DNA of 36,047 nt from a virus: IMG/VR virus record IMGVR_UViG_3300050120_000032, positions 1-36,047 of that record; one strand, given 5' to 3'. Below the pieces are notes generated by a model that was not told the DNA's origin, made no database searches, and worked only from the letters and a program-made list of their open reading frames with translations. Of the stretch, positions 1-36,047 are shown in pieces (the first letter of the stretch is position 1; each line of letters begins with the position of its first letter). Position numbers and translations under genes: made by a program.

Positions 1-127
1 GACGCGCCCGCTGCGGACCCAAGACCCGCGCCATTGCTCTATGACAGCACCTTTCGCCTTGAGCGCACCCCCGACTGTTAATCCGCAGGTCGCTGGTTCG
101 AGCCCAGCTCGGGGAGCCAAAGAAATC
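1..127. repeat. attachment-site direct repeat, left copy
   Basis: The first 127 bases are repeated without mismatch at 35849-35975, and the two copies diverge right after the shared AAAGAAATC. The repeat ends with a tRNA-Asn 3' half and lies directly next to the integrase gene, as expected for the left attachment site of a tRNA-integrated prophage. Its left border cannot be fixed because the window starts at its first base. The 72 bases before the tRNA half are not a tRNA 5' half, so this copy has the structure of attP (phage sequence, tRNA 3' half, phage sequence) rather than a host-phage junction. Confidence 0.9.
73..119 (+). tRNA. tRNA-Asn(GTT) 3' half, left copy (partial)
   Basis: The stretch contains the anticodon loop CTGTTAA (anticodon GTT), the variable region, a perfect 5-bp T stem (GCTGG/CCAGC) around TTCGAGC, the acceptor strand TCGGGGA, discriminator G and an encoded CCA. 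The D arm and 5' acceptor strand are absent: the upstream bases do not complete the anticodon stem. It is therefore the half tRNA normally carried by a phage attachment site and not a functional gene here. Confidence 0.75.
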
Positions 128-148
128 GCAGTAAATTCATATACTTAG

Positions 149-172
149 AGCCGCTAATCATGCGGCTTTTTG
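149..172 (+). terminator. intrinsic terminator downstream of the left att
   Basis: A 6-bp perfect stem AGCCGC/GCGGCT with a 7-base loop is followed by TTTTTG on the plus strand. It would end transcripts coming rightward through the tRNA half, replacing the host terminator displaced to 35984-36012. The last codons and stop of the integrase gene overlap the stem on the other strand, where there is no T tract, so it is unlikely to terminate the leftward operon. Confidence 0.7.
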
Positions 173-1168
173 TTTGCCCGTTTTTGGGTAGTGGGGACTT
201 TTCCGGCCAATCGTGTTGATTGCATCCTTCAGAGAATCGGTAGCCAGATGGGCGTATCGCCGGGTGGATGTAGCTGATTTGTGCCCCAACACCGCGCCCA
301 CGGTATAAAGATCGATACCCTCGTTAATCATGGCCGACGCGCTGGAATGGCGCAGATCATGAAATCGCATTGGGGGTAATTTAGCCGCGACAACCGCAAG
401 CCGGAAGTACTTTCCAATCGTCGTCTGGTTCGGCATCGCATAGCGAATGCAGCACAGAATTTTGGGGTGTATGGGGATATGTCGCCGCTGCCCGTTCTTT
501 GTGTCGGCCAGGATGAATAGACCCTTCTTCTTCTCGGCTCGCTGAATCTCACCCAGCCGCATGCCGCTGTAGAAGGCGATACGGATAGCCGCCCGGACCG
601 GTCGATCCTTGCAGCGCCGGGCAATCTGAATCATTTTTAAGCGGTCGATAAAGACGTGGCGTTCATTGCTGACGCTTGGCGCGATGACGCGCTCGGCAGG
701 GTCATGCTCTGACATGCCATGCCTCTTCCAGGCATACCGGCAAGCGCTAGTGAGGTATCGGATCCGATTGCGCAGGGTGGCGGCTGATAGCGGGCGATGG
801 TCGTCCTCGTTATCCCGTTCGGCCGATTCCCGATATTCCTTGCAGACGCCCGCCAACTGTGACATTGGCTTGCCCTTATAAAAGGGCATCATCTGATTAA
901 GCTCACGCTCGATATTGTCTTTGGATTTGAGCGTAGAGGCCCGCTCCTCGATGTAGATCAATACAGCCGCGTCTATCGTATGCTCCGCACGTTCGAGCCC
1001 GGTAGCGACGGCGTAGAGGCGCGCTGATTCTTTGCGGTCGAAGGCATCCGCTTGGCCTTGAGTCCACGCTTTTGGAAGTATCTTTCGAGCGCGGACTCGT
1101 TCGCCGCCGATCTGACGGTCGAATTCAAAGACGAGACGACTGCGCGCTTTATCTCGGTACACAGGCAT
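158..1168 (-). CDS. int: tyrosine recombinase/integrase
   Basis: This 336-residue phage integrase catalyses site-specific recombination between attP and the tRNA-Asn attB. All catalytic residues of the tyrosine recombinase family are visible: R204 in SGMRLGEI, K224 in DTKNG, H270 and R273 in FHDLRH, H296 in LGHKS and nucleophile Y305 in RRYAHL. Residues 65-160 form the core-binding SAM-like domain and the N-terminus (MPVYRDKAR) resembles the arm-binding start seen in related integrases, which supports the ATG at 1168. It is the last gene of the leftward operon and ends next to attL. Its first 65 codons overlap the excisionase-like gene in another frame. Confidence 0.96.
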   Translation of the reverse strand: MPVYRDKARSRLVFEFDRQIGGERVRARKILPKAWTQGQADAFDRKESARLYAVATGLERAEHTIDAAVLIYIEERASTLKSKDNIERELNQMMPFYKGKPMSQLAGVCKEYRESAERDNEDDHRPLSAATLRNRIRYLTSACRYAWKRHGMSEHDPAERVIAPSVSNERHVFIDRLKMIQIARRCKDRPVRAAIRIAFYSGMRLGEIQRAEKKKGLFILADTKNGQRRHIPIHPKILCCIRYAMPNQTTIGKYFRLAVVAAKLPPMRFHDLRHSSASAMINEGIDLYTVGAVLGHKSATSTRRYAHLATDSLKDAINTIGRKSPHYPKTGKQKAA

Positions 1169-1341
1169 TTTTGTTTGTATTCCAGAACGTCGCTTTGTTC
1201 GAACGATACCCTACGCCCGATCCGAAAACAGGGGACGGGTCCGAATGGGGCAGCCAATCCATACGCCTTCCTCCTGCTGACACCAAGAATGCGCGCCGCT
1301 TCCTCGGCGCTGATCGGCTCGGTTTGGCGTAGGGCGGTCAT
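973..1341 (-). CDS. excisionase-like HTH protein
   Basis: This 122-residue protein has an N-terminal winged-HTH of the AlpA/MerR/excisionase type at about residues 8-55: ISAEEAARILGVSRRKAYGL, followed by a wing-like IGRRVSFEQSDVLEYK. Such proteins bind attachment-site arms and steer integrase towards excision. The ATG at 1341 overlaps the stop of the upstream methyltransferase (ATGA), which decides this start over an earlier ATG. The last 196 bp, encoding a basic tail, overlap the integrase start in a different frame. The role is inferred from the HTH type and position beside int. Confidence 0.75.
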   Translation of the reverse strand: MTALRQTEPISAEEAARILGVSRRKAYGLAAPFGPVPCFRIGRRVSFEQSDVLEYKQKCLCTEIKRAVVSSLNSTVRSAANESALERYFQKRGLKAKRMPSTAKNQRASTPSLPGSNVRSIR

Positions 1342-1817
1342 TGGGGCGGCTCCTGTTTCATAAAGCAGATCCAATGCGTGTCAGCCCTCTTGCCGGACTT
1401 GTGTCCAAAGAGTGGGGCCTGATCGGTCAGAGTCAATATCTGACTAACCTTGATCTGAATTTCGTTCCACTTGAAGACCAGCACACCATTCGGCTTGAGC
1501 ACGCGGAAGCATTCAGCGAAGCCTCGCCGTAGATCATCTTCCCAATCGTTGCTCAGGATTCCATACTTTTTGCCGATCCAGCCGGATAGACCGGCGCGGC
1601 GCAGGTGCGGGGGATCGAACGCGATCAGGCTGAATGTGCAATCGGGAAAAGGCATATCGCGGAAATCCATCTGAACGTCCGGCTTGATGCTCAGAGCTCG
1701 CCCGTCGCAAAGCGTGTGCTCTTCGTCGCGGATGTCTCCGAACAAGACACCCTGATGTTCGGGGTTGAACCAGAACATGCGGCTACCGCAGCAAGGATCG
1801 AGAATGCTCAGGCTCAT
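1338..1817 (-). CDS. SAM-dependent DNA methyltransferase, probably N6-adenine type
   Basis: This 159-residue class I methyltransferase has an SAM-binding motif I at residues 5-15 (ILDPCCGSRMF) and a catalytic-type DPPH motif at 68-71, followed by a CFRVLKPNGVLVFKW beta strand typical of the fold. DPPH in place of DPPY is used by a number of small phage adenine methyltransferases. No restriction endonuclease lies nearby, so it is probably an orphan enzyme protecting phage DNA. The start at 1817 has a good GGAGG site 5 bases upstream and overlaps the stop of the preceding gene by ATGA; a longer upstream extension in frame lacks such support. Confidence 0.85.
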   Translation of the reverse strand: MSLSILDPCCGSRMFWFNPEHQGVLFGDIRDEEHTLCDGRALSIKPDVQMDFRDMPFPDCTFSLIAFDPPHLRRAGLSGWIGKKYGILSNDWEDDLRRGFAECFRVLKPNGVLVFKWNEIQIKVSQILTLTDQAPLFGHKSGKRADTHWICFMKQEPPQ

Positions 1818-2005
1818 TTCGCCTCCATCGCCGAGATCTTCCCGGCTGGGTAGTACTGAACGACCCATCCACGGGAGTATGCGGACCTTGCCCACCCGGG
1901 CCAGTTCTGCCGGTCAAGGCGGTTGGCCAAAATAGACAATCCCCGCGATGATGCCGAGCGGCCCATCGATTCAAAAAAACGTTTTCCGGCGAGTGGCTTA
2001 GTCAT
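1814..2005 (-). CDS. hypothetical small basic protein
   Basis: This 63-residue ORF has no family I recognise. It is basic and rich in Arg, Ser and Trp. The start at 2005 is preceded by a purine-rich GGGGGGAAG site; the start overlaps the upstream gene by 8 bases and the stop overlaps the methyltransferase start by ATGA. The translational coupling on both sides is the main evidence that it is a real gene. Confidence 0.6.
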   Translation of the reverse strand: MTKPLAGKRFFESMGRSASSRGLSILANRLDRQNWPGWARSAYSRGWVVQYYPAGKISAMEAK

Positions 2006-2366
2006 TGCTCTTCCCCCCGTTGCGGGCGGCATCGATGATATGCATTTTTCCTCTTAGCATTGGTGCCCATGCTTTTCGGCGAAGGCTCTCAGCCACGTCA
2101 GACTCGATCGGCTCGGCCAGCCCGTAATTGCCGTCCGAATGAATCGGGCAATAGTCGAACGTATCCCAGAACGGATCGCGGCCGCTTATGTGTATCCAAC
2201 CGCCGGGCGTGGCGCATGCTTTGCAGAGCGGCATGTCACAGGTGAATGGCATCTTGGATGCGTCGATAAACGAGCAGCCGCGCTCCTCGCCTCCAATGGG
2301 TGCTCCTAGGTGATAGTCGCAAAGCAAGGTGCTGGGGGCACCGCAGGCTAAACATGGTGTCATTTC
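1998..2366 (-). CDS. Cys-rich putative zinc-binding protein
   Basis: This 122-residue protein has many metal-ligand candidates: C4-x2-C7, C15/H18, C30, C42, C47-x2-C50 and C72/H75, suggesting one or two zinc-ribbon or treble-clef units. The function is unknown; small zinc proteins are common accessory genes in phage early operons. The start at 2366 (MTPCLACG) has an AGGGGGA site and overlaps the end of the upstream gene by 7 bases. A long in-frame extension upstream of this ATG is Arg-rich and looks like non-coding translation. Confidence 0.7.
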   Translation of the reverse strand, partial: EMTPCLACGAPSTLLCDYHLGAPIGGEERGCSFIDASKMPFTCDMPLCKACATPGGWIHISGRDPFWDTFDYCPIHSDGNYGLAEPIESDVAESLRRKAWAPMLRGKMHIIDAARNGGKSND

Positions 2367-3250
2367 GCATCCCCCTGCGCACCCGTTGCCGTGGTATTCA
2401 GTGCGCGATTTATGTCGCACACGTCTCGATATGGTCCCTTGTTCAATCCTTTGCGTTCGATGTAGTCCAGCGCCAAAGCGTTGAGCGGGTTGGTGGGCGC
2501 GGCTTTGTAGAGCGCATGGACTAGTCTGCGAACGAAAGTCAGCAAGTCGTCCACTAGATCGTCGGGATTTTCTGTGGTATTCAGTGCGATAGCATCCCGT
2601 GCGTATTGCCGTATCTCGTCCAAAGTGAAGCCGACGACGCCGAACCATGCTGGGATAGGCGGCAATGCGACCTCGATTGTAAGCCGCACCAGTGCTTGCG
2701 GTACCGGCTCATCGCTAGTATCTGCGCGGCTCTCCTGGCAGGCATCACGTATCGGCGCGGCGGTACCGGGCTGTTCTCCGGAATTTCCGGATGGTTCGGT
2801 TATTCGCGATTCTCGAATAACTGGTGCAACCTGGGGTGCGGGAACGGGGGCGGCCTCCCGCATGGCATCGCAGAGCGAAGCAATGTTGGTGTAATCCTGA
2901 TAATTGTTTTTTATCCACTCGACTGCTCGTTGCCACGCCACCGGCTCCGCATCCGGTTGCAGCGTGCCTTGCGTTGGGGCGGTGTGAGTGAATAGAGGCT
3001 CATGCTGCCACCAATTGGCGTCGCGCTCGTCGTAATACCATTTTTCGTCCGCACTACGACGAAAGCGATATGCAACCGGGGCACTCACCGTTGCTACCTT
3101 GGCGAGCACGGCGGATTCGATGGCGCGGGCCGATGCGTTATCCCATTGCTCGCCACCCATGCCTCCCGTGTAGCCACCAGCGTACAGTGCTTGATAGGCG
3201 CGGGCATGCACCGCTTCAATCTCGTCATCGCTCAATAGTTTGGTGCTCAT
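2360..3250 (-). CDS. phage accessory protein of unknown function
   Basis: This 296-residue protein consists of blocks. The N-terminal 100 residues contain SAPVAYRFRR followed by a Trp-rich stretch and EPLFTHTAP, a pattern familiar from phage ead/Ea22-type accessory proteins. A Pro-rich linker at about 130-190 is followed by a C-terminal helical block. The function is unknown. The start at 3250 forms ATGA with the stop of the upstream gene. Confidence 0.75.
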   Translation of the reverse strand: MSTKLLSDDEIEAVHARAYQALYAGGYTGGMGGEQWDNASARAIESAVLAKVATVSAPVAYRFRRSADEKWYYDERDANWWQHEPLFTHTAPTQGTLQPDAEPVAWQRAVEWIKNNYQDYTNIASLCDAMREAAPVPAPQVAPVIRESRITEPSGNSGEQPGTAAPIRDACQESRADTSDEPVPQALVRLTIEVALPPIPAWFGVVGFTLDEIRQYARDAIALNTTENPDDLVDDLLTFVRRLVHALYKAAPTNPLNALALDYIERKGLNKGPYRDVCDINRALNTTATGAQGDAK

Positions 3251-3600
3251 GGTTTCACCTCCAATGGCAATATCCAATTAGCATCGAAGTCCGCCATCGC
3301 CAGAGCTGGACTATCTCCAAATCCCGCAACGCCATCTTGCAGATTCTCACCATAGAGAGCGCACCACTGGCTGCCATCGATGCTGATCGCTGGTCGGTAA
3401 ATAACCGAAGGGCGCATGGTTTCCAGCGCTGCCACACGCTGCGTATCGGCAGCTTGCCCATACTCCGTTCTGACGGCCTCTATGGACAGAGCTAGGTAGT
3501 GGACTTGCTGACCGATCGCCTCCTGAAACGCTTCGGAAATATTGCCGCCCGAGATACGACTGCGTACGGCGTCATACGTGGCTTGATAGATATCGCTCAT
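3247..3600 (-). CDS. conserved phage hypothetical protein
   Basis: This 117-residue protein has a helical N-terminal half and a C-terminal segment YRPAISIDGSQWCALYGENL followed by GVAGFGDSPALAMADFDANW. I associate that C-terminal block with a widespread phage early-operon protein of unknown function that resembles a double-stranded RNA-binding or HicB-like beta-alpha fold. Starts and stops overlap both neighbours by ATGA, and the start at 3600 is fixed by this. Confidence 0.75.
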   Translation of the reverse strand: MSDIYQATYDAVRSRISGGNISEAFQEAIGQQVHYLALSIEAVRTEYGQAADTQRVAALETMRPSVIYRPAISIDGSQWCALYGENLQDGVAGFGDSPALAMADFDANWILPLEVKP

Positions 3601-4016
3601 GATTTCACCTCCGCCGCGGCGGGTAGTGGATGCCACAGATCGAAGCTATACCATCTGCTAGATAGCCGGTCTAAACATCTATGGCCGAAATTAGTGTTCC
3701 CCTCGTACTTGCCCGAGAAGACATATTTATCGTAGATAACCACAGCTATAGAACCCCCCAGCTCTGGCAATCGATCCTCCACGCTGATCCACCCAGGCAC
3801 CGCAGCAACAGGTGCAGCGTAGCGCAATGTCGAAAGCGTGAGAATGTCGGCACGAGCATCATCCAATGCGAGAAAGATTGCAGCTTCCGACATCGTAGAC
3901 ATGACCTTCGGATCGCATCTTTGCCAACTTTTGATCGTGCGGCGCGTTAATTCACGGTGCGTGAATGCTGCCTTCGCATTCGTGGGATCGGGGGTAGGGT
4001 GGTCAGGGTGGGTCAT
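3597..4016 (-). CDS. DUF551-domain protein
   Basis: This 139-residue protein ends in a block typical of DUF551: WISVEDRLPELGG at about residues 76-88, followed by VIYDKYVFSGKY and a closing WHPLPAA. DUF551 proteins are frequent in phage early regions and have no known function. The N-terminal 70 residues are separate and helical. The start at 4016 overlaps by ATGA with the stop of the frame-shifted ORF inside the cytosine methyltransferase gene, not with the stop of the methyltransferase itself. Confidence 0.8.
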   Translation of the reverse strand: MTHPDHPTPDPTNAKAAFTHRELTRRTIKSWQRCDPKVMSTMSEAAIFLALDDARADILTLSTLRYAAPVAAVPGWISVEDRLPELGGSIAVVIYDKYVFSGKYEGNTNFGHRCLDRLSSRWYSFDLWHPLPAAAEVKS

Positions 4017-4555
4017 GCTGTTTCCTTAGAATCGATTGCTGAGAATGGTGAATGCTGCTGCTGCCACTCGTGGAACTTGGCCGTTTCCAAGGGCCGCAGT
4101 GCGGTCCACTGAATGGGCCATCCCATCATCCATTCGACGAAACTGGGAGGCCAGCGCCACCCAACGGCTGCGACTATCGCCAGACAGGTTTGCGTAACCC
4201 ATAGGGTCATGCGCAAGCGGTTCAGATTGTTGCTTAGGCCAGGCCCGCGGCGAGCCCAGGATTTTGTTGGAGTGGGCAACAATCCAGATACGTTCGCGTA
4301 GGTGATCGGCGCCGAAGTCGGCTGCTGAAAACACATCCCACTGCGCATCGAACCCGATCGAGGCCAGATCTCCAAGAACGGTTCCAAGCCCCCTAGAAGT
4401 GAGAATTGGGCTGTTTTCCACGAAAACGTATTCGGGCTCCACCTCGCGAATGATCCGGAACATTTCCGTCCAGAGTCCACTTCGTTCTCCAGAGAGTCCT
4501 TTGCCGTTGCCAGACGCGCTGATGTCCTGGCACGGAAAGCCGCCAGATACGACAT
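4013..4555 (-). CDS. protein overprinted on the cytosine methyltransferase gene (second frame)
   Basis: On the same strand as dcm but in a different frame, this ORF reads 180 codons with composition and motifs of a real protein: FRARTSA near the start, FARWSPNTFSWKT, WPRSGSMRSG, LLPTPTKS and, near the end, SFVEWMMGWPIQWTAL then LETAKFHEWQQQHS. From memory, these phrases recur in phage proteins often annotated as methyltransferase-associated or hypothetical. Its stop overlaps the next gene's ATG as ATGA, so it keeps the operon's coupling, whereas the dcm stop lies 9 bases short of that ATG. The ATG at 4555 is chosen because the family-like sequence begins there; no clear ribosome site is seen, and the frame is open up to 4795. 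Confidence 0.55.
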   Translation of the reverse strand: MSYLAAFRARTSARLATAKDSLENEVDSGRKCSGSFARWSPNTFSWKTAQFSLLGGLEPFLEIWPRSGSMRSGMCFQQPTSAPITYANVSGLLPTPTKSWARRGPGLSNNLNRLRMTLWVTQTCLAIVAAVGWRWPPSFVEWMMGWPIQWTALRPLETAKFHEWQQQHSPFSAIDSKETA

Positions 4556-4799
4556 CAACAATGCCGCGCCACGGTCGGCCGTCAAAACTGCACACGTCAG
4601 ACCAAATCGGGAATGGTCTGAGGCATCCATCGTTTTGTCGTTGCGCGAGAACTTGTGCGGCGTAGGCATCACGTTCAACTGCGCACACGGTTCGCCATCC
4701 AAGGAGGTGACCGCCGAGGATGCCTCCGCCGGCACCAGCGAAGAGCGCGAGTTCCCGCAAGCCTTCACCATCGCGGCGCTGAATATACAGCTCATTCAT
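4026..4799 (-). CDS. dcm: C5-cytosine DNA methyltransferase
   Basis: This 257-residue enzyme transfers a methyl group from SAM to C5 of cytosine in DNA. Motif I is LALFAGAGGG (residues 17-26), the catalytic Cys is C90 in GGFPCQDIS, motif VI is ENS at 128-130 (usually ENV), motif VIII is RERIWIVAHS at 168-177, and the late motif GNGQVP is at 238-243. The target-recognition region is short, about 60 residues, as in other compact phage enzymes. The start at 4799 has an AAAGGA site and forms ATGA with the gene before. There is no cognate endonuclease nearby, so it is probably an orphan, host-mimicking methylase. Confidence 0.93.
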   Translation of the reverse strand: MNELYIQRRDGEGLRELALFAGAGGGILGGHLLGWRTVCAVERDAYAAQVLAQRQNDGCLRPFPIWSDVCSFDGRPWRGIVDVVSGGFPCQDISASGNGKGLSGERSGLWTEMFRIIREVEPEYVFVENSPILTSRGLGTVLGDLASIGFDAQWDVFSAADFGADHLRERIWIVAHSNKILGSPRAWPKQQSEPLAHDPMGYANLSGDSRSRWVALASQFRRMDDGMAHSVDRTAALGNGQVPRVAAAAFTILSNRF

Positions 4800-5032
4800 A
4801 TTCCTTTACGGCCGAAGCCGATCCAGTTGAAAGTGCGGCGCAGGCAGTACGAGCGCACGAGCGATATTGCGGTGTAGAAGACGCCGAGGGCGATGTTTTG
4901 CCGCAGCGATATGTGCCACCCGAACAGCGGGAACAGCACTGCGTTAGCGGTCATATTGATGCCGTAGCCGACGATCACATTAACGATGGCCTCAGAGACA
5001 CTTCCGCGCTTGGATTGACCTTGGCGTGTCAT
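4796..5032 (-). CDS. DUF7220-like small membrane protein
   Basis: This 78-residue protein has two hydrophobic segments, about residues 15-36 and 44-60, separated by the short GWHISLRQN turn, and a basic C-terminal tail (SYCLRRTFNW). The pattern VGYGIN-x-TAN...FPLFGWHISL-x-QN-x-ALGVFYT is familiar from a phage inner-membrane family (DUF7220) of unknown function. ATGA overlaps link it to dcm downstream and to the 39-residue gene upstream. Confidence 0.8.
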   Translation of the reverse strand: MTRQGQSKRGSVSEAIVNVIVGYGINMTANAVLFPLFGWHISLRQNIALGVFYTAISLVRSYCLRRTFNWIGFGRKGI

Positions 5033-5148
5033 GCTGCCCTCAGATCCAAGCCAGCCTGCTTATCCTGCGCCGGTTCCACGCTGATGCTGATATCGCCGCC
5101 CAGCACCTCGTAGAGTTTCTTGACCTGCTCGATGGATTGATCGTCCAT
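5029..5148 (-). CDS. hypothetical 39-residue protein
   Basis: A short ORF starts MDDQSIEQVKKLYEVLGG and is acidic and amphipathic, with no membrane segment or recognised domain. A good CAGGAG ribosome site lies 7 bases before the ATG, and the stop overlaps the next ATG as ATGA. It fills the otherwise empty gap between the exonuclease and the DUF7220-like gene. Confidence 0.65.
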   Translation of the reverse strand: MDDQSIEQVKKLYEVLGGDISISVEPAQDKQAGLDLRAA

Positions 5149-5177
5149 GTAATGCTCCTGTGGGGTCGTGCGTGGGG

Positions 5178-5792
5178 TTAAGCGGCTTTAGCGGCGTCAG
5201 CCATCGTCCGAATAGCGAAGTACACATCCATGCAGCCGGTCACATCAGCCATGGCGCTGTGCGCATTGACCAGGGGCTTGCCGGTGAGGTGGAGAACGGC
5301 CTCGGCCAGGTTGGCGGTCTTGTAGTGATTGCGGCCAGCGGCGATCATCTTGGCAGTGGGCGGGGCCTTGACGATGGGCGTAGCCATAATCGCCGTACAT
5401 TCGGCCTTACCGTCTTTCCACATGTCGGCACATTGCGGCGCGTGACGCATGCAGGCGATTCGTACCAGGCGCGCATCAAACTGTTCGTTGTGGGCAATGC
5501 GGGTACGCTTTACACCCCACATTTCTAGGAACATTTCGATTGCCATGTGCGCAGGTACGCCTACGTCCATCGCATGCTCGGTGGTAATGCCGTGAATAGC
5601 CGCAACAGCGTCAGGAATCGTCCAGCCATCGGGCTTGATGACCAAATCGATACTGTTGATGATGTTTCGCGTGTCCAGGTCAACCAATGCGGCGGCTAAC
5701 TGGACGATGTGCGGCTGGTCGGGATGCTCAGACGGCTCCTTGAAAAGCGGGAGGCCAGTTGTTTCCGTGTCGTAAAATAGGGCGAGATTCAT
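5178..5792 (-). CDS. DnaQ-like 3'-5' exonuclease (DEDDh)
   Basis: This 204-residue protein belongs to the DEDDh exonuclease superfamily. Exo I is YDTETTGLP with D8 and E10, Exo II is HNEQFDARLV with D106, and Exo III is H178-SAMA-D183. It probably degrades 3' ends of DNA during replication or recombination; in this operon it stands next to the YqaJ exonuclease and RecT, so a role in processing recombination substrates is plausible. Its own polymerase partner is not encoded here. It is separated by 8 bases from the upstream exonuclease gene. Confidence 0.9.
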   Translation of the reverse strand: MNLALFYDTETTGLPLFKEPSEHPDQPHIVQLAAALVDLDTRNIINSIDLVIKPDGWTIPDAVAAIHGITTEHAMDVGVPAHMAIEMFLEMWGVKRTRIAHNEQFDARLVRIACMRHAPQCADMWKDGKAECTAIMATPIVKAPPTAKMIAAGRNHYKTANLAEAVLHLTGKPLVNAHSAMADVTGCMDVYFAIRTMADAAKAA

Positions 5793-5800
5793 GGTTATCC

Positions 5801-6448
5801 TTATGCGGCAAGTTTGAGGAGGTTTTCGACCAAGCCATCGACCTCGGCCAAGAACTGATTGACTGCGACTTCATGCGCCAGCAACTCTTCGAATGTGGGC
5901 GTGTAGCGATGGATGAAAAGCTGCAAGGGCTCAGGCATGCGTGGATCAAACGACACGAAATCGGCGAACTCGGCACCCGATACCCAAATGTTGTGCAGGC
6001 ATTGCGGCTTGTATTCGTCGGGGATGGTCTGCGCTTGCATGTAGCGAATGTGCGTGGTGCTCTTTGGGCATTTTGTTTCGAGCAAACCGGTCTTGCCAGC
6101 CTCAACAAACAGCCCGTCCACGCTGCATCCTGCCGCGATGTTGGGCAGATAGAAGAAGCCGCTTTCGAGAGCAATATTTCCCGTCTGCTCTTCGTATGCC
6201 ATGCGCGCAAATGGCTCGTTATCGACGCCCCACTGCATTTCACGCGAGACGTAGATATCGACAGCCGGTTCATTCGTGAGCTTCTCGATAGCCAGCTCAA
6301 ACATGTAGTCGGCACGTTTGGCAGACCAGACGCCTTTCGCGGTTTTCGCCATCATGTCAGCCGCACGAGAGCCGGTAGCTTTGCCAAGTCGATCACGCTT
6401 CCATCCGTCCGTGCCCTGCTCGTGCTGGCAGATCAGGTAATCACTCAT
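5801..6448 (-). CDS. YqaJ-family (lambda Exo-like) recombination exonuclease
   Basis: This 215-residue protein has the PD-(D/E)xK nuclease core of YqaJ viral recombinases: D111 in CSVDGLF and E124-x-K126 in LLETKCPK, with an N-terminal WKRDRLGKATGS motif of the family. These enzymes resect double-stranded ends to give the single strand bound by RecT. The start at 6448 is chosen because it has a GGAGC site and begins with the family-like segment; 44 codons further upstream are Arg-rich and overlap RecT. It overlaps the end of recT by 8 bases, fitting a two-gene annealing system. Confidence 0.93.
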   Translation of the reverse strand: MSDYLICQHEQGTDGWKRDRLGKATGSRAADMMAKTAKGVWSAKRADYMFELAIEKLTNEPAVDIYVSREMQWGVDNEPFARMAYEEQTGNIALESGFFYLPNIAAGCSVDGLFVEAGKTGLLETKCPKSTTHIRYMQAQTIPDEYKPQCLHNIWVSGAEFADFVSFDPRMPEPLQLFIHRYTPTFEELLAHEVAVNQFLAEVDGLVENLLKLAA

Positions 6449-7421
6449 GTTGTGCTCCTGTGTCTTGCCCAAACCCCTCATCTTCCGGCGCACGCTCTTC
6501 ATCGATCGTCTTGCCATCGTTGGGCGGTGTTGCTGTTGGCGTAGCTTCGCCGCGCAATATGGTTCCACGCTGCGTGACATACGCCTTGAACGCGTTGTAG
6601 ACAGCCATGTCTTTGGTTGCTTTCACCTCTGCCAGACCATCCGTCCAGACTTTGGTGAGGGCTTGGGTGTCTGGCGCAGCATCTACCAGCTTGCGCAGGC
6701 GCGGCAGTAGGTCAGGATCGGCGCGTGGCGTATCTTTGAAATCAATACCCTCTCCACCATCGGTATTCAGGTGGTGAGTGGCAACATCGAGCCGATCCGT
6801 CTTCGGCCAGTATTTGCTTGCGCGCTTCACAACTGTCTTCTTTGCCATTTCGCCGTAATCGGTTTTCCAAGGCGATGACTTGCCGGATTTCACCGACTGA
6901 GATCGATTCATGATTCCATCGATATCGGCGCGAGACATGGTTTCGGTCAGATAATCACCATCAGCCGTCTTGGCAACTACATACGCACCGACAATCTCGC
7001 CACGATCCTTCGAGAACGGATTAAAAACGTGCGTAGGCGGCGCATCGTAGCCATTGAGGGCGAAGTTATCGTTCTCGTGAACAAGATTCGCCTGCGCCCA
7101 TTTGATCGAACCTGTGGACACTGCCAGATCGATCAATCCCATATAGGAGATATCAAGACAGATCCGACCATCGCGTGGCACGAGATAGGCTTGCTTCTTT
7201 GCAGGGTTGAGACTGATCCCGATTGCGGCAATGTTGGTGATTGCGTTGATTACCGACTGCCGGTTCTTCATGGCAACGCCCAACGAAAAATCGTTTTGCT
7301 GGAGAACCTGTATTGCGAAACCCGCCTCACGCTCGAAGCTGATCGATTGATCTGACAGCACCGCAGCGAAAGCATCCCGCGTGTCGTAGATTTCTTGAGT
7401 GATGACTTGGAGATTGCTCAT
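6441..7421 (-). CDS. recT: RecT single-strand annealing protein
   Basis: This 326-residue protein resembles RecT: the core at about residues 55-215 includes ITNIAAIGISLNPAKKQAYL, LDISYMGLIDLA and YGEMAKKTVVKRASKYWP. It binds the single-stranded DNA made by the neighbouring exonuclease and promotes annealing, for example in phage recombination and concatemer formation. The C-terminal 70 residues are acidic and Pro-rich and are probably disordered. An AAGAGA site precedes the ATG at 7421. Confidence 0.95.
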   Translation of the reverse strand: MSNLQVITQEIYDTRDAFAAVLSDQSISFEREAGFAIQVLQQNDFSLGVAMKNRQSVINAITNIAAIGISLNPAKKQAYLVPRDGRICLDISYMGLIDLAVSTGSIKWAQANLVHENDNFALNGYDAPPTHVFNPFSKDRGEIVGAYVVAKTADGDYLTETMSRADIDGIMNRSQSVKSGKSSPWKTDYGEMAKKTVVKRASKYWPKTDRLDVATHHLNTDGGEGIDFKDTPRADPDLLPRLRKLVDAAPDTQALTKVWTDGLAEVKATKDMAVYNAFKAYVTQRGTILRGEATPTATPPNDGKTIDEERAPEDEGFGQDTGAQHE

Positions 7422-7430
7422 ATTTTTCTC

Positions 7431-7571
7431 TTATCTCGCCGCAGAGTGCAAATACACTTGATGCTCCTCAATCGTCGGCAGAACGACTGCCATGACGATT
7501 GCGATGGCGAATGCGAATGCCAAGATGGCGAGTTCGAAGCGCTCTTTGATGGACCAGGGTTTGGGTTTCAT
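7431..7571 (-). CDS. small single-pass membrane protein, 46 residues
   Basis: A 46-residue ORF starts MKPKPWSIKERFE and then has one strongly hydrophobic helix at about 14-32 with Ala/Ile/Val repeats. The basic N-terminus suggests it is inside the cell. A GGAGAA site precedes the ATG at 7571, which overlaps the previous stop as ATGA. The function is unknown. Confidence 0.65.
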   Translation of the reverse strand: MKPKPWSIKERFELAILAFAFAIAIVMAVVLPTIEEHQVYLHSAAR

Positions 7572-7768
7572 GCTGGTTCTCCGATAGCTGAGCGCTCGCG
7601 CAAGGTATTGATCGCGTCAGCAGTGAATTCACTGCCAGGGGCATGGCCGAACCACTCGCAGGCGCTGACCACGCCATACGCTCGGATGACATTCTCGAAT
7701 TGATCGCCTTCGCAGCAGATATCTACGGGTGGAATGTCACCGGGGCCACCAAAAGGAATTCTGCTCAT
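7568..7768 (-). CDS. hypothetical protein, 66 residues
   Basis: This acidic protein starts MSRIPFGGPGDIPPVDICCE and continues with a short helical part. No family is recognised. Both ends overlap neighbours as ATGA (7765-7768 and 7568-7571), which supports a genuine translated gene in the leftward operon. Confidence 0.65.
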   Translation of the reverse strand: MSRIPFGGPGDIPPVDICCEGDQFENVIRAYGVVSACEWFGHAPGSEFTADAINTLRERSAIGEPA

Positions 7769-8130
7769 TGCAATTCTCCGAGAGCTTTGGCGATGGCGGC
7801 GCGTAGCATGTCGCCAGTCGCAAACGTGGTGCCCATCTCACTTTCCGTGTTGGCGATATAGTTGAGTGCACGCTGAGCAGCTTCGAGCAGATCCGGCGCG
7901 GCGGCGATCAGGTGGGCGTTTGCAACCAACTCAGGAGTGCCGCCAGTGCACCCGGGGAAGTCGTCGTAGATGCACGCGTGGTTTACTTTGCCATTGCGCC
8001 ACGGAAACGGGCCTACCTTGTGGCAAAGTCCGGCGCTCGTGCGAACTGTGGTTAGCGTCCAGGGCGTTGCGGTATGGTCCGTTTTCATATCTGCGACCGA
8101 CAAAGGGCCGGGTGAGTGCGTGATGCTCAT
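7765..8130 (-). CDS. conserved phage hypothetical protein
   Basis: This 121-residue protein contains TATPWTLTTV near residue 20 and a C-terminal NAHLIAAAPDLLEAAQRAL segment, a phrase very common in small phage early proteins of unknown function. The ATG at 8130 is preferred because it overlaps the stop of the small membrane gene upstream as ATGA; an internal ATG 14 codons later (MKTDHTATPW) could also be used. Confidence 0.7.
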   Translation of the reverse strand: MSITHSPGPLSVADMKTDHTATPWTLTTVRTSAGLCHKVGPFPWRNGKVNHACIYDDFPGCTGGTPELVANAHLIAAAPDLLEAAQRALNYIANTESEMGTTFATGDMLRAAIAKALGELQ

Positions 8131-8237
8131 AGCGAATCCACCAAATGTTGAACGACGATTGCGATAACAAACGCGGCGATGGCTATCAGCGCGGCCAGTT
8201 CCAGCAGGAAAGCGGCTACTTTGCGAGCGGTTTTCAT
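8127..8237 (-). CDS. small single-pass membrane protein, 36 residues
   Basis: The 36-residue ORF begins MKTARKVAAFLLE and is nearly all one hydrophobic helix (residues 8-30) rich in Ala, Ile and Val. ATGA overlaps join it to both neighbours. The function is unknown; it is one of three very small membrane proteins in this operon. Confidence 0.6.
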   Translation of the reverse strand: MKTARKVAAFLLELAALIAIAAFVIAIVVQHLVDSL

Positions 8238-8623
8238 TGCGCCAACTCCTGACGCTCAGTTTCTTCATCGTCCATTTCGCCAGGCAACGAATCCTCGAAC
8301 TGTTGCTTTAGCAATGCGTTGGCCTTGATGCCGACAAACTTTTTCAGTCGCACGCGCACGGTTTCCCCGAAGTGCGGGTATGCCATTGGCGCGAAGAGGT
8401 GCCCGTATGTGAATTCTTCTAGGCTGATCGACTCATCGCGGAGGTATTCGAGCCACCATGTGCGATCTTGACCGAATGCGCGCTCCGATTCGAAGAAGAT
8501 CAGCGCAAGAATGTCGCGGACGGCATGCTCCTCGCTGACGGTAGGCGGAGATTGGCGCGGCTCTTCGTAATCGCCGGTGCGAGTGAAATCATCGCCAGAT
8601 TGGAAGATCGGGAGGGCGATCAT
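8234..8623 (-). CDS. hypothetical protein, 129 residues
   Basis: The protein starts MIALPIFQSGDDF and is acidic and mostly helical, with an Arg/Lys patch RVRLKKFVGIKANALLK at about residue 90. No domain is recognised. The start at 8623 is supported by the ATGA overlap with the preceding stop; the longer open frame upstream is Arg/His-rich and overlaps other genes. Confidence 0.65.
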   Translation of the reverse strand: MIALPIFQSGDDFTRTGDYEEPRQSPPTVSEEHAVRDILALIFFESERAFGQDRTWWLEYLRDESISLEEFTYGHLFAPMAYPHFGETVRVRLKKFVGIKANALLKQQFEDSLPGEMDDEETERQELAQ

Positions 8624-8811
8624 TGATAACTCCGAACAGAAACGAGGTTGCCGAAATCGTCGGTGACGGCATCGTGCATGACTGAGGGTATCCAGCCTGG
8701 GCAGCCCGGGGTGAACACTGTCACTGGTACTGCGGATACCCGTAGCCAATGCCAGTCGGCGGCGTCATTCAGGGCGAACCCGTTAGAGTCGAAATACGTT
8801 GTGCCTTTCAT
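8620..8811 (-). CDS. hypothetical protein, 63 residues
   Basis: This small protein starts MKGTTYFDSNGFAL and ends FGNLVSVRSYQ. No family is recognised. It begins 2 bases after the stop of the pentapeptide-repeat gene, without a clear ribosome site, so it probably relies on re-initiation, and its stop overlaps the next start by ATGA. Confidence 0.6.
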   Translation of the reverse strand: MKGTTYFDSNGFALNDAADWHWLRVSAVPVTVFTPGCPGWIPSVMHDAVTDDFGNLVSVRSYQ

Positions 8812-8813
8812 GA

Positions 8814-9581
8814 CTATGCGGCCGGATTAGCAGTAACCCACTCTTCGGCCCATTCCAGCGCGAGCCTGCTGAAAGGGTTGTTCTCGGGCGTATGGCCCTT
8901 GCTGATGCCAAAGAAAAATTTCTCTATCGGCCTCGTCGAGTCGGGATGTAGATCGCCAAGTTCTTGGTAATTTTTCCCGCGTACGTTAGCGATGGTGCCG
9001 ACAAGGCAAGCGCATTCGCCCTCGTACGTAGAGCCGTCTACCTTGCCGTCTTTCAGTGCGGTGATTAGGCCCTGCACTTCATTGGGCGCGGCGGAGAGCA
9101 CTGCAAACATGTCGTCGCGGATTGCGCTCAGGTTCGCATCGATCAGGTTCGCATCGCTCAGGTTCGCATCGATCAGGTCCGCATCGATCAGGTCCGCATC
9201 GCCCAGGTTCGCACGGCGCAGGTCCGCACCGCTCAGGTCCGCACCGCCCAGGTTCGCACGGCGCAGGTTCGCATCGCGCAGGTCCGCACCGCTCAGGTTC
9301 GCATCGCTCAGGTTCGCACGGCGCAGGTTCGCACCGATCAGGTTCGCATCGATCAGGTTCGCACCGATCAGGTTCGCACCGCCCAGGTTCGCACCGCCCA
9401 GGTTCGCACCGCCCAGGTTCGCATCGCGCAGGTCCGCATCGCGCAGGATCGCTTTCGCCGCCGTCGCCTGTTCGAGCGCAACACGCGTCCGCAACCCGCT
9501 CGGCGTATCGCTCGGAATCTCAGCCGTGAATAGGACGACCTCAGTGAGGCGGTGCTTGATTTGGATTTGGATTGTGTTCAT
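8814..9581 (-). CDS. pentapeptide-repeat protein, first gene of the leftward operon
   Basis: This 255-residue protein has 21 consecutive pentapeptides of the form A(N/D)LXX at residues 49-152, which should fold into a right-handed beta helix of about five turns. A separate C-terminal domain of about 100 residues follows (GKVDGSTYEGECACLVGTIA, then SFTRLALEWAEEW-like helix). Some pentapeptide proteins mimic DNA and bind gyrase; this has not been shown for this type. It is the first gene after the operator-controlled leftward promoter, so it should be made early. The start at 9581 follows a GAGAACGAG stretch; upstream codons run through the operators. Confidence 0.85.
   Translation of the reverse strand: MNTIQIQIKHRLTEVVLFTAEIPSDTPSGLRTRVALEQATAAKAILRDADLRDANLGGANLGGANLGGANLIGANLIDANLIGANLRRANLSDANLSGADLRDANLRRANLGGADLSGADLRRANLGDADLIDADLIDANLSDANLIDANLSAIRDDMFAVLSAAPNEVQGLITALKDGKVDGSTYEGECACLVGTIANVRGKNYQELGDLHPDSTRPIEKFFFGISKGHTPENNPFSRLALEWAEEWVTANPAA
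9126..9437 (-). repeat. 15-bp tandem repeat coding for pentapeptides
   Basis: About 21 tandem 15-bp units, each a variant of GGTTCGCACCGCCCA on the plus strand, encode the pentapeptide region. Several neighbouring units are identical, so the tract is expected to gain or lose units by slippage in steps that keep the frame. Confidence 0.9.
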
Positions 9582-9614
9582 CTCGTTCTCGCTGGATGGT
9601 TGGGGAGGGGATGA

Positions 9615-9670
9615 ACGAAGGTTAGCGTAACGCTCATGAGTAGCGCAAGCTTTATCTAAGCGTAACGCTA
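9615..9670 (-). promoter_or_regulatory. leftward early promoter with paired operators (PL/OL)
   Basis: Two 11-bp palindromic sites, AGCGTTACGCT on the minus strand, lie at 9624-9634 and 9659-9669, exactly 35 bp apart. A promoter reads leftward between and over them: -35 TTGCGC (9643-9648 on the complement), 18-bp spacer, -10 TAACCT (9619-9624). The promoter-proximal operator covers the spacer and the edge of the -10. The arrangement matches the region at 10869-10927 in mirror orientation, so both should be bound by the same repressor or Cro. Confidence 0.75.
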
Positions 9671-9700
9671 AGATAATTTGTAACTTGAGAATTTTTGACG

Positions 9701-9723
9701 AAAAAAAAACCACCCGAAGGTGG
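9701..9723 (-). terminator. intrinsic terminator of the repressor-lipoprotein transcript
   Basis: On the minus strand CCACC-TTCG-GGTGG forms a stem with the very stable UUCG loop and is followed by nine T. It lies 19 bases after the lipoprotein stop and upstream of the leftward promoter, so it separates the lysogenic transcript from the lytic one. Confidence 0.85.
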
Positions 9724-9741
9724 CGATCTAGGTGAGGGTGA

Positions 9742-10374
9742 TTACTGCGTGGTGCAGCTCACCATGTTGCCGTAGCGTGTGCAGCTGGTCGTCGTCGGCG
9801 GCGTGTAGATAGGGTGCGCTGCCAGATAGCCCAGCATGGCGGCGTTGTTTTGCGCCCGAACCCTGGCGGCCTCTTCATTTTGGCGTTGCTGCTCGGCGTT
9901 GTAGACCTGGGTATCGTCATTGGTTGTTTTAAAAAACCAAGCCAGCATGTCTGCTCGCCATTTGTTGTAATCGCCGTAGGTTATCGATCCGCTAAAGAGA
10001 GAGCCGCGCACCACTCGCTCCTGATTAATCATTGTGTTGTAGGCGAGACTGACGCCGGGCGCGCTGTACATATCAATGAAACTTCGCGTGCGGCCGTAGC
10101 ATTCAGACCATGCCCCGTCCCAGGCTGAAAGGGCTGCTTTCTGCAGCGCGTCCGGGCGACTTGCGTCGGCAAGCTGCGTCATTGTCGCGGCGTGGTCTTC
10201 GAATGGAATTTTTTCCCGCAAAATCTGAATATCTGGATTTTGCCCGGCCGCGGCGCAAACCACGCCATTGGCTACGCGTGTTTCCTGCATTTGCGCGTCT
10301 CGCTTGCGTTGCTCCATTTGGGCGCAGCCAGCCAATAAGGCACAGACAATCAGTCCGCATACCGCTTTATTCAT
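9742..10374 (-). CDS. lipoprotein in the immunity region (possible superinfection exclusion or lysogenic conversion)
   Basis: This 210-residue protein has a type II signal peptide: MNK, hydrophobic core, lipobox LLAGC with the lipidated Cys at 17. The mature part is mostly helical, Gln/Arg-rich with a late QQRQNEEAARVRAQ helix, and ends in a two-Cys tail (SCTRYGNMVSC). I recognise no family. It sits downstream of the repressor gene in the same direction and before a terminator, so it is likely to be expressed in the lysogen. Exclusion of related phages at the cell envelope is an inference from location and lipoprotein nature only. Confidence 0.75.
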   Translation of the reverse strand: MNKAVCGLIVCALLAGCAQMEQRKRDAQMQETRVANGVVCAAAGQNPDIQILREKIPFEDHAATMTQLADASRPDALQKAALSAWDGAWSECYGRTRSFIDMYSAPGVSLAYNTMINQERVVRGSLFSGSITYGDYNKWRADMLAWFFKTTNDDTQVYNAEQQRQNEEAARVRAQNNAAMLGYLAAHPIYTPPTTTSCTRYGNMVSCTTQ

Positions 10375-10418
10375 GATGTCTCATTGTTTTGGATACCGCC
10401 CTACGGATAATAGGAGCG

Positions 10419-10435
10419 GGCAGTTATCGACTGCC
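10419..10435 (-). other. short hairpin between repressor and lipoprotein genes
   Basis: GGCAGT-CGATA-ACTGCC is a perfect 6-bp inverted repeat in the 70-bp gap between the two genes. There is no T tract, so it is not a standard terminator; it may be an mRNA-stabilising or processing structure, or chance. Confidence 0.35.
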
Positions 10436-10444
10436 AGCCACAGC

Positions 10445-10831
10445 CTAGGCCGCGTTGGCTTTTCTTTGGTATTCCGACTTATCCCAGGCGTCTATCTCGG
10501 TTAATGCCCGGCCCTCGATTATTCCTTTTACGGTGTCTGGAATCTTTGCCCACTGCTCGGGTGTGATTCTCTGGAACGGCCACGGCGCACCGCTTTCCGT
10601 AGCGTGGTTGATATCTAACCAATTCTCTCCTTTACCTGCCTTGCGCTCTATGTCGCGGCAAGTCTTCGCCCGCATGCCTCGGGCAACGCCCGTGCGTGAA
10701 TCTGGCGACGCATTCAGCCATTGACTTACCTGCGATGGGTCTTTACCGATTGTCTCGGCCAGGCGCCCAACGCCACCCAACTCGGTTACCAGTACTGCAA
10801 GGTTCGCCCTGCGGATCTCGTCAATAGTCAT
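10445..10831 (-). CDS. CI-like repressor, HTH only
   Basis: This 128-residue protein has an HTH of the XRE type at about residues 18-40 (GGVGRLAETIGKDPSQVSQW) and a second conserved part RAKTCRDIERKAGKGENWLD. It is divergent from the cro-like gene, the usual place of a lysogeny repressor. It lacks the C-terminal S24/LexA-type peptidase domain that lets many repressors cleave themselves under RecA, so induction must work another way. The last 60 residues are of unknown fold. No clear ribosome site precedes the ATG. Confidence 0.8.
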   Translation of the reverse strand: MTIDEIRRANLAVLVTELGGVGRLAETIGKDPSQVSQWLNASPDSRTGVARGMRAKTCRDIERKAGKGENWLDINHATESGAPWPFQRITPEQWAKIPDTVKGIIEGRALTEIDAWDKSEYQRKANAA

Positions 10832-10868
10832 GGCTTGGATTTGATAGCAACAGGCTAACTTTATGAAT

Positions 10869-10927
10869 TAGCGTTACGCTTGCGAAAATGCTTGTCGCCA
10901 CATGAGCGTTACGCTAATATCGACTTA
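10869..10927 (+). promoter_or_regulatory. rightward early promoter with paired operators (PR/OR)
   Basis: Two copies of AGCGTTACGCT lie at 10870-10880 and 10905-10915, 35 bp apart. A strong-looking promoter reads rightward: -35 TTGTCG (10892-10897), 17-bp spacer, -10 TAATAT (10915-10920). The downstream operator overlaps the spacer and the -10, so binding blocks the promoter. Transcription should start near 10927, the A of the cro ATG. The leftward repressor promoter presumably lies on the other side of the upstream operator but has no good consensus. Confidence 0.8.
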
Positions 10928-11160
10928 TGAAACTAGCCGAATACCTATCCGAAGCCAGGGGCCGCCAAGCTGCGCTGGCTAAAGAAATCAAAGCTCACGC
11001 TCCGGACGTGAGTCGGTGGGCGACTGGCGAAAGGCCCATCCCCGTGGAGTTTTGCCCTGCTATTGAGCGCGTCACAGAGGGCGTCGTAACGCGCCGCGAC
11101 CTTCGTCCCGACGACTGGCAACGCATCTGGCCCGAACTCGCCACCGAGAAGGTGGGTTGA
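10927..11160 (+). CDS. Cro/YdaS-like HTH regulator
   Basis: This 77-residue protein has a Cro/YdaS-type HTH: GRQAALAKEIKAHAPDVSRW with the typical Trp and GERPIP turn, then a short C-terminal RRDLRPDDWQRIWPEL. It would act at the two operator regions to switch to lytic growth. There is no Shine-Dalgarno sequence, and the predicted transcription start falls on the ATG, so the message may be leaderless. Confidence 0.9.
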   Translation: MKLAEYLSEARGRQAALAKEIKAHAPDVSRWATGERPIPVEFCPAIERVTEGVVTRRDLRPDDWQRIWPELATEKVG

Positions 11161-11161
11161 G

Positions 11162-11464
11162 ATGGGTGACGCCGATTTCAAGCAGGCGATGCTTTCTGAG
11201 CTACGACAGATCCGAGAAATCCAATCGGGAATTCTTGCCCATCTTCTAGCTCGGCCACCCATGCAACTAAATGCGCTGGCACCGTCAACGCTGCGAAATG
11301 AGGCGGTGGGGCGTCCTTTTGTGTGGGCGACTCCATCCGAAACATTCCAAGATCCGTTGCCGAGACCGACGTACACAGCAGGTACAGAAAATACAAATCT
11401 TCGGTCTCTCCTGTTGGGTGCGCAGGCTTCTCCAGAAAGAACTGAAGTTTCGAGGTCGCTATGA
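11162..11464 (+). CDS. hypothetical protein after cro (conflicts with an opposite-strand ORF)
   Basis: The 100-residue ORF starts 1 base after the cro stop with an AAGGTGGG site in a good position. Its first 30 residues form a charged helix (ADFKQAMLSELRQIREIQSG), while the rest is Pro/Thr-rich and has no recognised domain. The minus-strand ORF 11178-11513 covers the same bases, so the two compete; the operon context favours this one, while protein-like composition favours the other. Confidence 0.5.
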   Translation: MGDADFKQAMLSELRQIREIQSGILAHLLARPPMQLNALAPSTLRNEAVGRPFVWATPSETFQDPLPRPTYTAGTENTNLRSLLLGAQASPERTEVSRSL

Positions 11465-11513: not shown

Positions 11514-11681
11514 GGTCAGTCCCTTCCTCAAGTGTTTGCGTCCTAGTAACCGCAATCATAGTGGGCTGGGGCTGGCCGCCCGTTTTGCTGCTGCGTGAGT
11601 TCATGGCCTTTATTTTCGCCCGCGCCCACGCTGTCATTCATTCTGTAACCCCATTGAATTTTCCTAAGAAGCGAATCTGAA

Positions 11682-34502: not shown

Positions 34503-34720
34503 GCCTGCGCGAACACCTCATCGACGACTGGCGCACGGCGCACCGGCTCTATTCAGTGCGAGCCATGGCGGCCATCGTGATCGTATCGGTAGCCGAGTGC
34601 CTTGTTTCCATTTATCAGCCGCACACGCCGGTCGAAGCAGTCGCGTGCGGCCTGCTCACTGCCGTGCTGGGTATCGTGGGCATCGTGCTGCGCGTAACCA
34701 AACAAGCTCCCCATGGTTGA
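34499..34720 (+). CDS. putative holin
   Basis: The 73-residue protein begins MSLREHLIDDWRTAHRLYSV and has two hydrophobic segments at about 23-38 and 47-65. The N-terminal DDWRTAHRLYSVR pattern resembles small phage holins of the DUF7940 type. It would form the inner-membrane lesion that triggers lysis. Position between the membrane protein and the endolysin (8-base overlap) supports this. Confidence 0.8.
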   Translation: MSLREHLIDDWRTAHRLYSVRAMAAIVIVSVAECLVSIYQPHTPVEAVACGLLTAVLGIVGIVLRVTKQAPHG

Positions 34721-35204
34721 TCCCGTCCTTAAGCGTCGCTTGATTGCGGTATCCGCAGCGGGGGCTATCGCCATCGCATCCGTCATGGGATCATGGTTCG
34801 AGGGGCGGCGGTATGTGCCCTACAGGGACACAGGCAACGTAATAACCGTCTGCGATGGGCATACAGGGCCTGACATCGTTCTGAACCACCGCTATACGGA
34901 CGCTGAATGCGATGCGCTGCATATCAGCGATTTGCACATTGCCGATGCGGCTGTAACTCGCTACGTCGAAGTGCCTTTGAACGACTGGCAACGGGCTGCA
35001 TTGATCGACTTCACTTTCAACGTGGGTGCCGGAAAACTGCGCTCGTCCACACTGCTCAAGAAAACGAACGCAGGCGACTACGCCGGTATGTGTGCCGAAT
35101 ATTTCAAGTGGGATAAGGCCAGAAATCGCCACGGCGTCAGGGTCGTTCTTCCAGGGTTAGCTAAGCGTGCAGACGCGAGGGAATGGTCATGCTCTTATCA
35201 CTAG
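34713..35204 (+). CDS. SAR endolysin, GH24 lysozyme
   Basis: The 163-residue lysozyme has the T4-type catalytic triad E30, D39 and T45 in EGRRYVPYRDTGNVITVCDG, and a later WQRAALIDFTFNVGAGKL. The N-terminal segment (residues 9-27) is rich in Ala, Ile, Gly and Ser, weakly hydrophobic, as in signal-anchor-release endolysins that are exported by Sec and freed when the membrane is depolarised. It cleaves peptidoglycan glycan strands. Confidence 0.93.
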   Translation: MVDPVLKRRLIAVSAAGAIAIASVMGSWFEGRRYVPYRDTGNVITVCDGHTGPDIVLNHRYTDAECDALHISDLHIADAAVTRYVEVPLNDWQRAALIDFTFNVGAGKLRSSTLLKKTNAGDYAGMCAEYFKWDKARNRHGVRVVLPGLAKRADAREWSCSYH

Positions 35205-35773
35205 GCGCAAAGATAGCAACAGGGCTCGGTGTGCTCCTGCTGGCGTGGGGCTCGCTCATGCTATGGGGCCACCACAAGTACGACGCGGGAATCGAGTACG
35301 AGAAGGGCATCGCTGCCATCGAGCAGCACAAGATCGAATTGACAATGCAAAGGAAGGTGGATGATGCAAACGCTAAATTTAACGCCGCTCGATTGGCTAC
35401 GACGGCTGCTGAAACGGCCAAAGACGCCGCGCTGGCAACCCAGGCAGCGCGATTGGCCGATGCAAAAACGAACGTCGCTGGCCTCAATGGCGATGTTGCT
35501 CGGCTTAACGGCCTGCTCCAACATTACGCCGACAACGCCGCATCTGCCCCAAGCCCCCGCCCCGTTGACAGCCAAGCACCCAAGTGGCGCCGCCTATTTG
35601 GCGAGTGTGTCGGACGAGTTGCCGCGCTCACAGATAGCCTTGGACGACTCAGCGCAAGCTATCACGGCAGCGAGGTCCGATTTAGCCAGGTGGCAGGCGA
35701 CGCTGCAAAGGGGCTTGACGAAATTAACGGGTGGCAAGGATACGCCTTAGCGCTACAGGCGGGATCTAAGTAG
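35189..35773 (+). CDS. i-spanin (Rz)
   Basis: The 194-residue protein has an N-terminal membrane anchor (residues 8-26) and a long periplasmic coiled coil from about 45 to 110 rich in Ala, Lys and Asp. With Rz1 it links and fuses inner and outer membranes at the last step of lysis. ATG 35189 is chosen because a GAGGG site sits 7 bases before it, while the ATG at 35183 has the site too close. It completely contains the Rz1 gene. Confidence 0.85.
   Translation: MLLSLGAKIATGLGVLLLAWGSLMLWGHHKYDAGIEYEKGIAAIEQHKIELTMQRKVDDANAKFNAARLATTAAETAKDAALATQAARLADAKTNVAGLNGDVARLNGLLQHYADNAASAPSPRPVDSQAPKWRRLFGECVGRVAALTDSLGRLSASYHGSEVRFSQVAGDAAKGLDEINGWQGYALALQAGSK
35460..35750 (+). CDS. o-spanin lipoprotein (Rz1), embedded in Rz
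   Basis: The 96-residue protein is read in another frame inside Rz. It starts MQKRTSLASMAMLLGLTAC, with basic residues, a hydrophobic core and a lipobox ending at C19, and continues with a Pro-rich stretch (TPTTPHLPQAPAPL) typical of Rz1. Full embedding in Rz is a known arrangement. A longer frame upstream adds an Arg-rich extension lacking a signal peptide. Confidence 0.85.
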   Translation: MQKRTSLASMAMLLGLTACSNITPTTPHLPQAPAPLTAKHPSGAAYLASVSDELPRSQIALDDSAQAITAARSDLARWQATLQRGLTKLTGGKDTP

Positions 35774-35848
35774 GGGTGCTGGGCACTCAAGAAGTAGGCA
35801 AAAACCGCGGGGGATTTTATTGACGGAATGGGGGCGATTGGAGCGTCC

Positions 35849-35975
35849 GACGCGCCCGCTGCGGACCCAAGACCCGCGCCATTGCTCTATGACAGCACCT
35901 TTCGCCTTGAGCGCACCCCCGACTGTTAATCCGCAGGTCGCTGGTTCGAGCCCAGCTCGGGGAGCCAAAGAAATC
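35849..35975. repeat. attachment-site direct repeat, right copy
   Basis: This 127-bp copy is identical to 1-127. It is preceded by a 75-bp stretch without a gene after the Rz stop and followed by unique sequence with a terminator, so this copy has the true attR structure: phage sequence, tRNA 3' half, host sequence. Confidence 0.92.
35921..35967 (+). tRNA. tRNA-Asn(GTT) 3' half, right copy (partial)
   Basis: Identical to the half at 73-119, with anticodon loop, T arm, acceptor strand and CCA, but no D arm or 5' strand. In a standard prophage the intact tRNA would be restored at the left junction; neither end of this window shows one. Confidence 0.75.
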
Positions 35976-35983
35976 AATCACTT

Positions 35984-36012
35984 AGCCCAACTTTTGCGAG
36001 TTGGGCTTTTTG
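35984..36012 (+). terminator. host terminator downstream of the tRNA
   Basis: AGCCCAAC and GTTGGGCT form a perfect 8-bp stem with an 8-base loop, followed by TTTT. It is placed 16 bases after the CCA and is probably the native terminator of the tRNA-Asn gene before integration. Confidence 0.85.
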
Positions 36013-36047
36013 TTTTTCCGGGCCATGTAAACGACATGTACTCCGAT

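Follow-up and report, generated by a model that had tools for sequence, protein, structure and literature searches.

The ends of a temperate phage contig read as attP and attR junctions and are probably assembly boundaries

We have analysed a 36,047-nt stretch of viral DNA, IMG/VR record IMGVR_UViG_3300050120_000032, here called the window. It is very probably a path through a short-read assembly graph built with k = 127, from a sample that held the attP, attR and attB junctions of one temperate phage. Its odd left end is an explained assembly boundary and not a new biological feature. An earlier sequence-only reading had offered a tandem copy, a circular copy or an assembly effect as explanations of that end. 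The last two of these combine here and are not alternatives. The evidence comes from a direct repeat that includes tRNA-Asn sequence, from the sequences that flank it on each side, and from a model of the assembly graph.

The direct repeat and its tRNA-Asn core

The window contains a 127-nt direct repeat, 35849-35975 being identical to 1-127 (100%) with a start-to-start distance of 35,848. An exact repeat of this length at that distance is far beyond chance. The two copies diverge at the very next base, which is g at 128 and a at 35976. The only direct repeats of at least 25 nt in the window are this family and one 15-bp tandem array (9065-9512), which lies within a gene (8814-9713, minus strand) encoding a pentapeptide-repeat protein. 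One complete turn of the phage lies between the ends, corresponding to a circular form of 35,848 bp. The sequence-only reading had remarked that the repeat starts at base 1 and has a length also used as an assembly k-mer, and that the same 72 bases precede the tRNA half in both copies. The exact repeat is confirmed, SPAdes has been used with k up to 127 (see below), and 1-72 is identical to 35849-35920. The right end provides a second 127-mer boundary, absent from that reading, which extends its k-mer remark. At the left the 127 nt comprise 72 nt of phage arm and 55 nt of core, while at the right (35921-36047) they comprise 55 nt of core and 72 nt of flank. The features are collected in Table 1.

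The repeat includes 45 nt (75-119) that belong to the 3' part of tRNA-Asn, running from the anticodon loop (CTGTTAA) through CCA. This is preceded by GA at 73-74 and followed by AAGAAATC at 120-127, giving a core of 55 nt (73-127). We searched for the 45-nt part in a collection with one genome per species. It occurs exactly in 116 genome stretches, giving 122 matches, mainly in Achromobacter, Bordetella and other Betaproteobacteria. In 121 of the 122 matches the bases before it form a normal tRNA-Asn 5' half with CGGA at its end, and the remaining one is cut by the end of its own contig. No such half stands before the tRNA part in the window, and ARAGORN finds no tRNA there, in agreement with the earlier statement that the 72 upstream bases do not form a tRNA 5' half. 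At position 72 the phage has C and every one of the 121 host tRNA-Asn genes that could be read has G, and the stretch shared by attB and attP therefore starts at 73. It extends to 127, beyond which phage and host sequence diverge. By this comparison the core can be taken as 55 nt long, with a left limit that is set from other genomes, independently of the contig ends.

Among viral contigs the 45-nt part has three matches, each of them preceded by sequence other than a tRNA-Asn 5' half. Two of the contigs that carry it (L121 and L122) contain no relative of the window integrase detectable by tblastn. A slightly shorter segment, 75-114, matches 44 mycobacteriophage records, which we have taken as the common tRNA 3' part. 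Apart from the phage of the window, the tRNA part joined to AAGAAATC was found in no viral or genome contig of the searched collections.

Two candidate tRNA structures were rejected. A whole tRNA at the left end was discounted, as neither ARAGORN nor Rfam at the gathering score gave a match. The minus strand of 35821-35922 can form a branched fold of -37.9 kcal/mol (calculated without a shuffle control) that looks cloverleaf-like by eye, and it was dropped when ARAGORN at a lowered threshold found no tRNA in 35781-35935.

Table 1. Positions of the att-site elements and neighboring genes in the window
Feature	Position	Strand	Remarks
Second copy of the lysis-side arm (P arm)	1..72	+	Identical to 35849-35920; completes a 127-mer with the 55-nt core
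55-nt att core, attP context	73..127	+	tRNA-Asn (GTT) 3' part plus AAGAAATC
Start of integrase-side arm (P')	128..157	+	128 is the first base separating phage (g) from host side (a, 35976)
Tyrosine integrase, 3' end toward core	158..1168	-	PHROG integrase E 8.6e-38; PF00589 E 3.9e-18
Helix-turn-helix ORF, overlaps integrase start	973..1374	-	PF12728 HTH_17 E 4.4e-08
Endolysin, phage lysis end	34713..35204	+	phrog_7 E 5.9e-46
Spanin (Rz)-like ORF	35183..35773	+	By position; no PHROG match
P arm, between lysis genes and core	35774..35920	+	
55-nt att core, attR context	35921..35975	+	
Host-side flank (B'), 72 bases	35976..36047	+	Intrinsic-terminator-like hairpin, by eye
Right-end 127-mer	35921..36047	+	Branch node in the model, where attR (phage) and attB (intact tRNA) would converge

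The junctions at the two ends and the host-side flank

The left end reads as attP, in the order phage end, core, integrase side, and in this respect the earlier interpretation as phage end, tRNA half and phage start holds. The core is the 3' part of a tRNA gene of plausible hosts in the Betaproteobacteria, phage DNA stands on both sides of it with no tRNA 5' half, and a tyrosine integrase gene adjoins it. From the 3' end of the tRNA part to the integrase stop codon there are 38 nt, again with no tRNA 5' half. If the left end were attL an intact tRNA would be restored beside the integrase, and none is found in the window. The right end reads as attR, with the phage arm followed by the core and then by DNA that lies downstream of a host tRNA.

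We compared the arrangement at the left end with that of integrase relatives, taken at E up to 1e-40, which occur at 23 loci in 21 of 268 genomes from the Sheuella amnicola family. An intact tRNA faces the 3' end of the integrase in 10 of these loci (6 Met, 3 Lys and 1 Ser), with 40-98 nt between it and the end of the match. Within the other 13 loci none was detected, so the attL-like arrangement is not universal among the relatives, and tRNA-Asn is the target in none of the 23. A search of viral contigs with peptide patterns of the integrase gave no match to a close relative.

The DNA beyond the right-hand core was compared with the same 268 genomes. At E up to 1e-18 there are matches in 86 of them, most of which extend barely beyond the tRNA part. 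The stretch 35921-36017 aligns at 92% with locus L209, where an intact tRNA-Asn stands before the flank, and at lower identity with eleven other genomes (L210-L220) and with Sheuella amnicola (Alcaligenaceae). Of the 16 flank loci, 13 have an intact tRNA-Asn according to ARAGORN, and the exceptions are L206 (a virus), L210 and L219. For the 12 best loci (L209-L220) the flank lies behind an intact tRNA-Asn in ten, that is all except L210 and L219. These alignments mark the right flank, 35976-36047, as host DNA, and would place the host near the Alcaligenaceae; the exact host is absent from the searched collections.

Other features of the tRNA-Asn locus were seen in these genomes. L210 and L219 have a flank like that of the window with no intact tRNA before it, and would represent further elements, or their remnants, integrated at this tRNA-Asn gene; the site is thus probably used by other elements. 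Directly behind the tRNA-Asn core of L209, L210, L214, L218 and L219 there is a small nucleotidyltransferase-like ORF, recognized by eye. In four of these five it is followed by a second ORF resembling a HEPN partner (also by eye), L209 being too short. In L211 the ORF behind the tRNA resembles a phage tail protein when judged by eye.

A graph model of the contig ends and competing explanations

Our model of the assembly consisted of k-mer counts for eight junction mixtures; attB was built using surrogate host sequence upstream. For the full mixture we tried k = 99, 111, 121, 125, 126, 127, 128, 129 and 141. In the model both ends of the window fall on branch nodes for only one of these nine values, k = 127. 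Each end tests this k on its own, since the length of the core was set from other genomes. At this k the left 127-mer is a branch node, as expected from the earlier suggestion that the left end is where an assembly graph branched. The modeled outcome depends on the mixture. Neither end branches with a single lysogen, or with a circle beside empty hosts. With a tandem lysogen alone, or a circle plus a lysogen, the left-end 127-mer branches and the right-end one does not, and the reverse is obtained with a lysogen plus an empty site. Both branch only in mixtures that contain attP, attR and attB together (scenarios 5, 6 and 8). A contig stop at 36047 is produced neither by the tandem alone nor by circle plus lysogen in the absence of empty sites. 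Once empty sites are present, tandem and circle mixtures give an identical graph (scenarios 5 and 6).

According to the COBRA paper, a contig that metaSPAdes or MEGAHIT breaks at a repeat retains ends of maxK length (PMC10914622). JGI assemblies have been made by metaSPAdes at a maximum k of 127. SPAdes with k = 33, 55, 77, 99 and 127 is described in two studies, one in which JGI did the assembly (PMC9789639) and one with JGI annotation (PMC6668480). The assembler of the present record presumably used k = 127 too. The ends of the window resemble these maxK overlaps in having an end of exactly k with two continuations, but the branch in the window would arise from site-specific recombination rather than from an ordinary repeat or strain variant.

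The ends were probably generated as follows. The sample would hold attP (joining phage end to phage start), attR (phage end to host) and attB (the intact host tRNA-Asn). The 127-mer formed by the 72-nt arm and the core would continue into either phage or host, and the contig would start there. The 127-mer formed by the core and 72 nt of host would be entered from either the phage or the intact tRNA, and the contig would stop there. The position of the break would follow from a 127-mer that real attP and attR junctions have in common. Reads of attB type should exist in the sample. The source of attP would be phage DNA in circular, concatemeric or permuted form, as in replicating circles, concatemers or virions, and we infer that circles, replicating DNA or virions supplied it, not a tandem lysogen. 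The following observation counts against this explanation. In living cells attL must accompany attR, and the branch expected from attL (at core plus P') leaves no break in the path of the window. Either the assembler resolved this branch with paired reads, or attL was lost.

A head-to-tail tandem lysogen could also supply attP in some cells of the population while the tRNA-Asn site is empty in others. The modeled graph and contig ends are then the same as for the preferred explanation (scenario 6). It requires an extra state that has no separate evidence and is not needed, and a tandem lysogen alone would give no stop at 36047 in the model (scenario 2). We consider it unlikely, and the tandem copy is the part of the earlier proposal that is not required. 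The same low likelihood attaches to a stronger version, in which the phage is kept in nature as a dimeric or multimeric head-to-tail lysogen alongside empty sites, with attP as a stable chromosomal junction. Less likely again is that the right-end 127-mer has as its second predecessor the junction of another element or strain at tRNA-Asn, or that the flank is the end of another element. Other elements probably use the site, as indicated by L210 and L219 and by the tail-like ORF of L211, but the intact tRNA-Asn before the flank in ten of the twelve best loci argues against it, and the left end would be left as attP regardless. It is very improbable that the end repeat is an artefact with no biological attP, arising when an assembler or provirus trimming duplicated or cut a terminal stretch. 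While 127 is a common k-mer size, the left end passes from the core directly into the integrase arm, in the order of a real attP (compare L123 below), and trimming at gene boundaries is not expected to hit 127-mers at both ends. Moreover, in none of 83 IMG/VR loci is the terminal 127-mer repeated inside (many of these loci are partial).

The phage, its relatives and what the record represents

The phage is of an ordinary temperate type. Its genes include a tyrosine integrase, a helix-turn-helix ORF, a repressor, a YqaJ exonuclease, RecT, terminase, portal, head, connector and tail fibre proteins and an endolysin. The helix-turn-helix ORF at 973..1374, judged only by its position and domain, may be excisionase-like. 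Within a C-5 cytosine methylase gene (4026-4799, minus strand), 227 nt match Salmonella phage records at 88.5% DNA identity. No other such match occurs in 1-12000 apart from the tRNA part, a hint of exchange. Adjacent genes for an aspartyl/asparaginyl hydroxylase-like protein and a GNAT acetyltransferase (25950-26974) lie within the structural gene region.

The same phage is present in a second record, IMGVR_UViG_3300050121_000033 (23,994 bp), which covers 2925-27083 of the window at near 100% except in the pentapeptide-repeat array, where the two copies differ apparently by length. It differs from the window in stopping short of the att region. A different phage (L123/L223; IMG/VR, 39,254 bp) has the same tRNA-Asn core. 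In L123 the endolysin-like and Rz-like genes, the core and the phage's own integrase follow one another as in the window (genes identified by eye), with attP inside the contig, and its layout is that of the window with the ends joined. The L123/L223 integrase is only distantly similar to that of the window (27% over about 100 residues); the methylase stretch is related. The arrangement is otherwise that of temperate phages with tyrosine integrases that target tRNA genes, with a core from the tRNA 3' part, the integrase 3' end toward the core and lysis genes at the opposite end. The sole difference is that the window shows attP where a prophage contig has attL.

The record thus comprises a complete 35,848-bp phage turn, the 127-nt end repeat and 72 nt of host. 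Prophage Tracer takes attP and attB present alongside the integrated form as the mark of an active prophage (PMC8682789). The split-read signals described there differ from what is used here, where the forms are deduced from contig ends alone, without reads. The significance of the result is mostly practical: core plus flank equal to k at both ends could flag active prophages from contig ends with no need of reads. For the phage itself, the window is probably a view of an active temperate phage caught in its attP, attR and attB forms.
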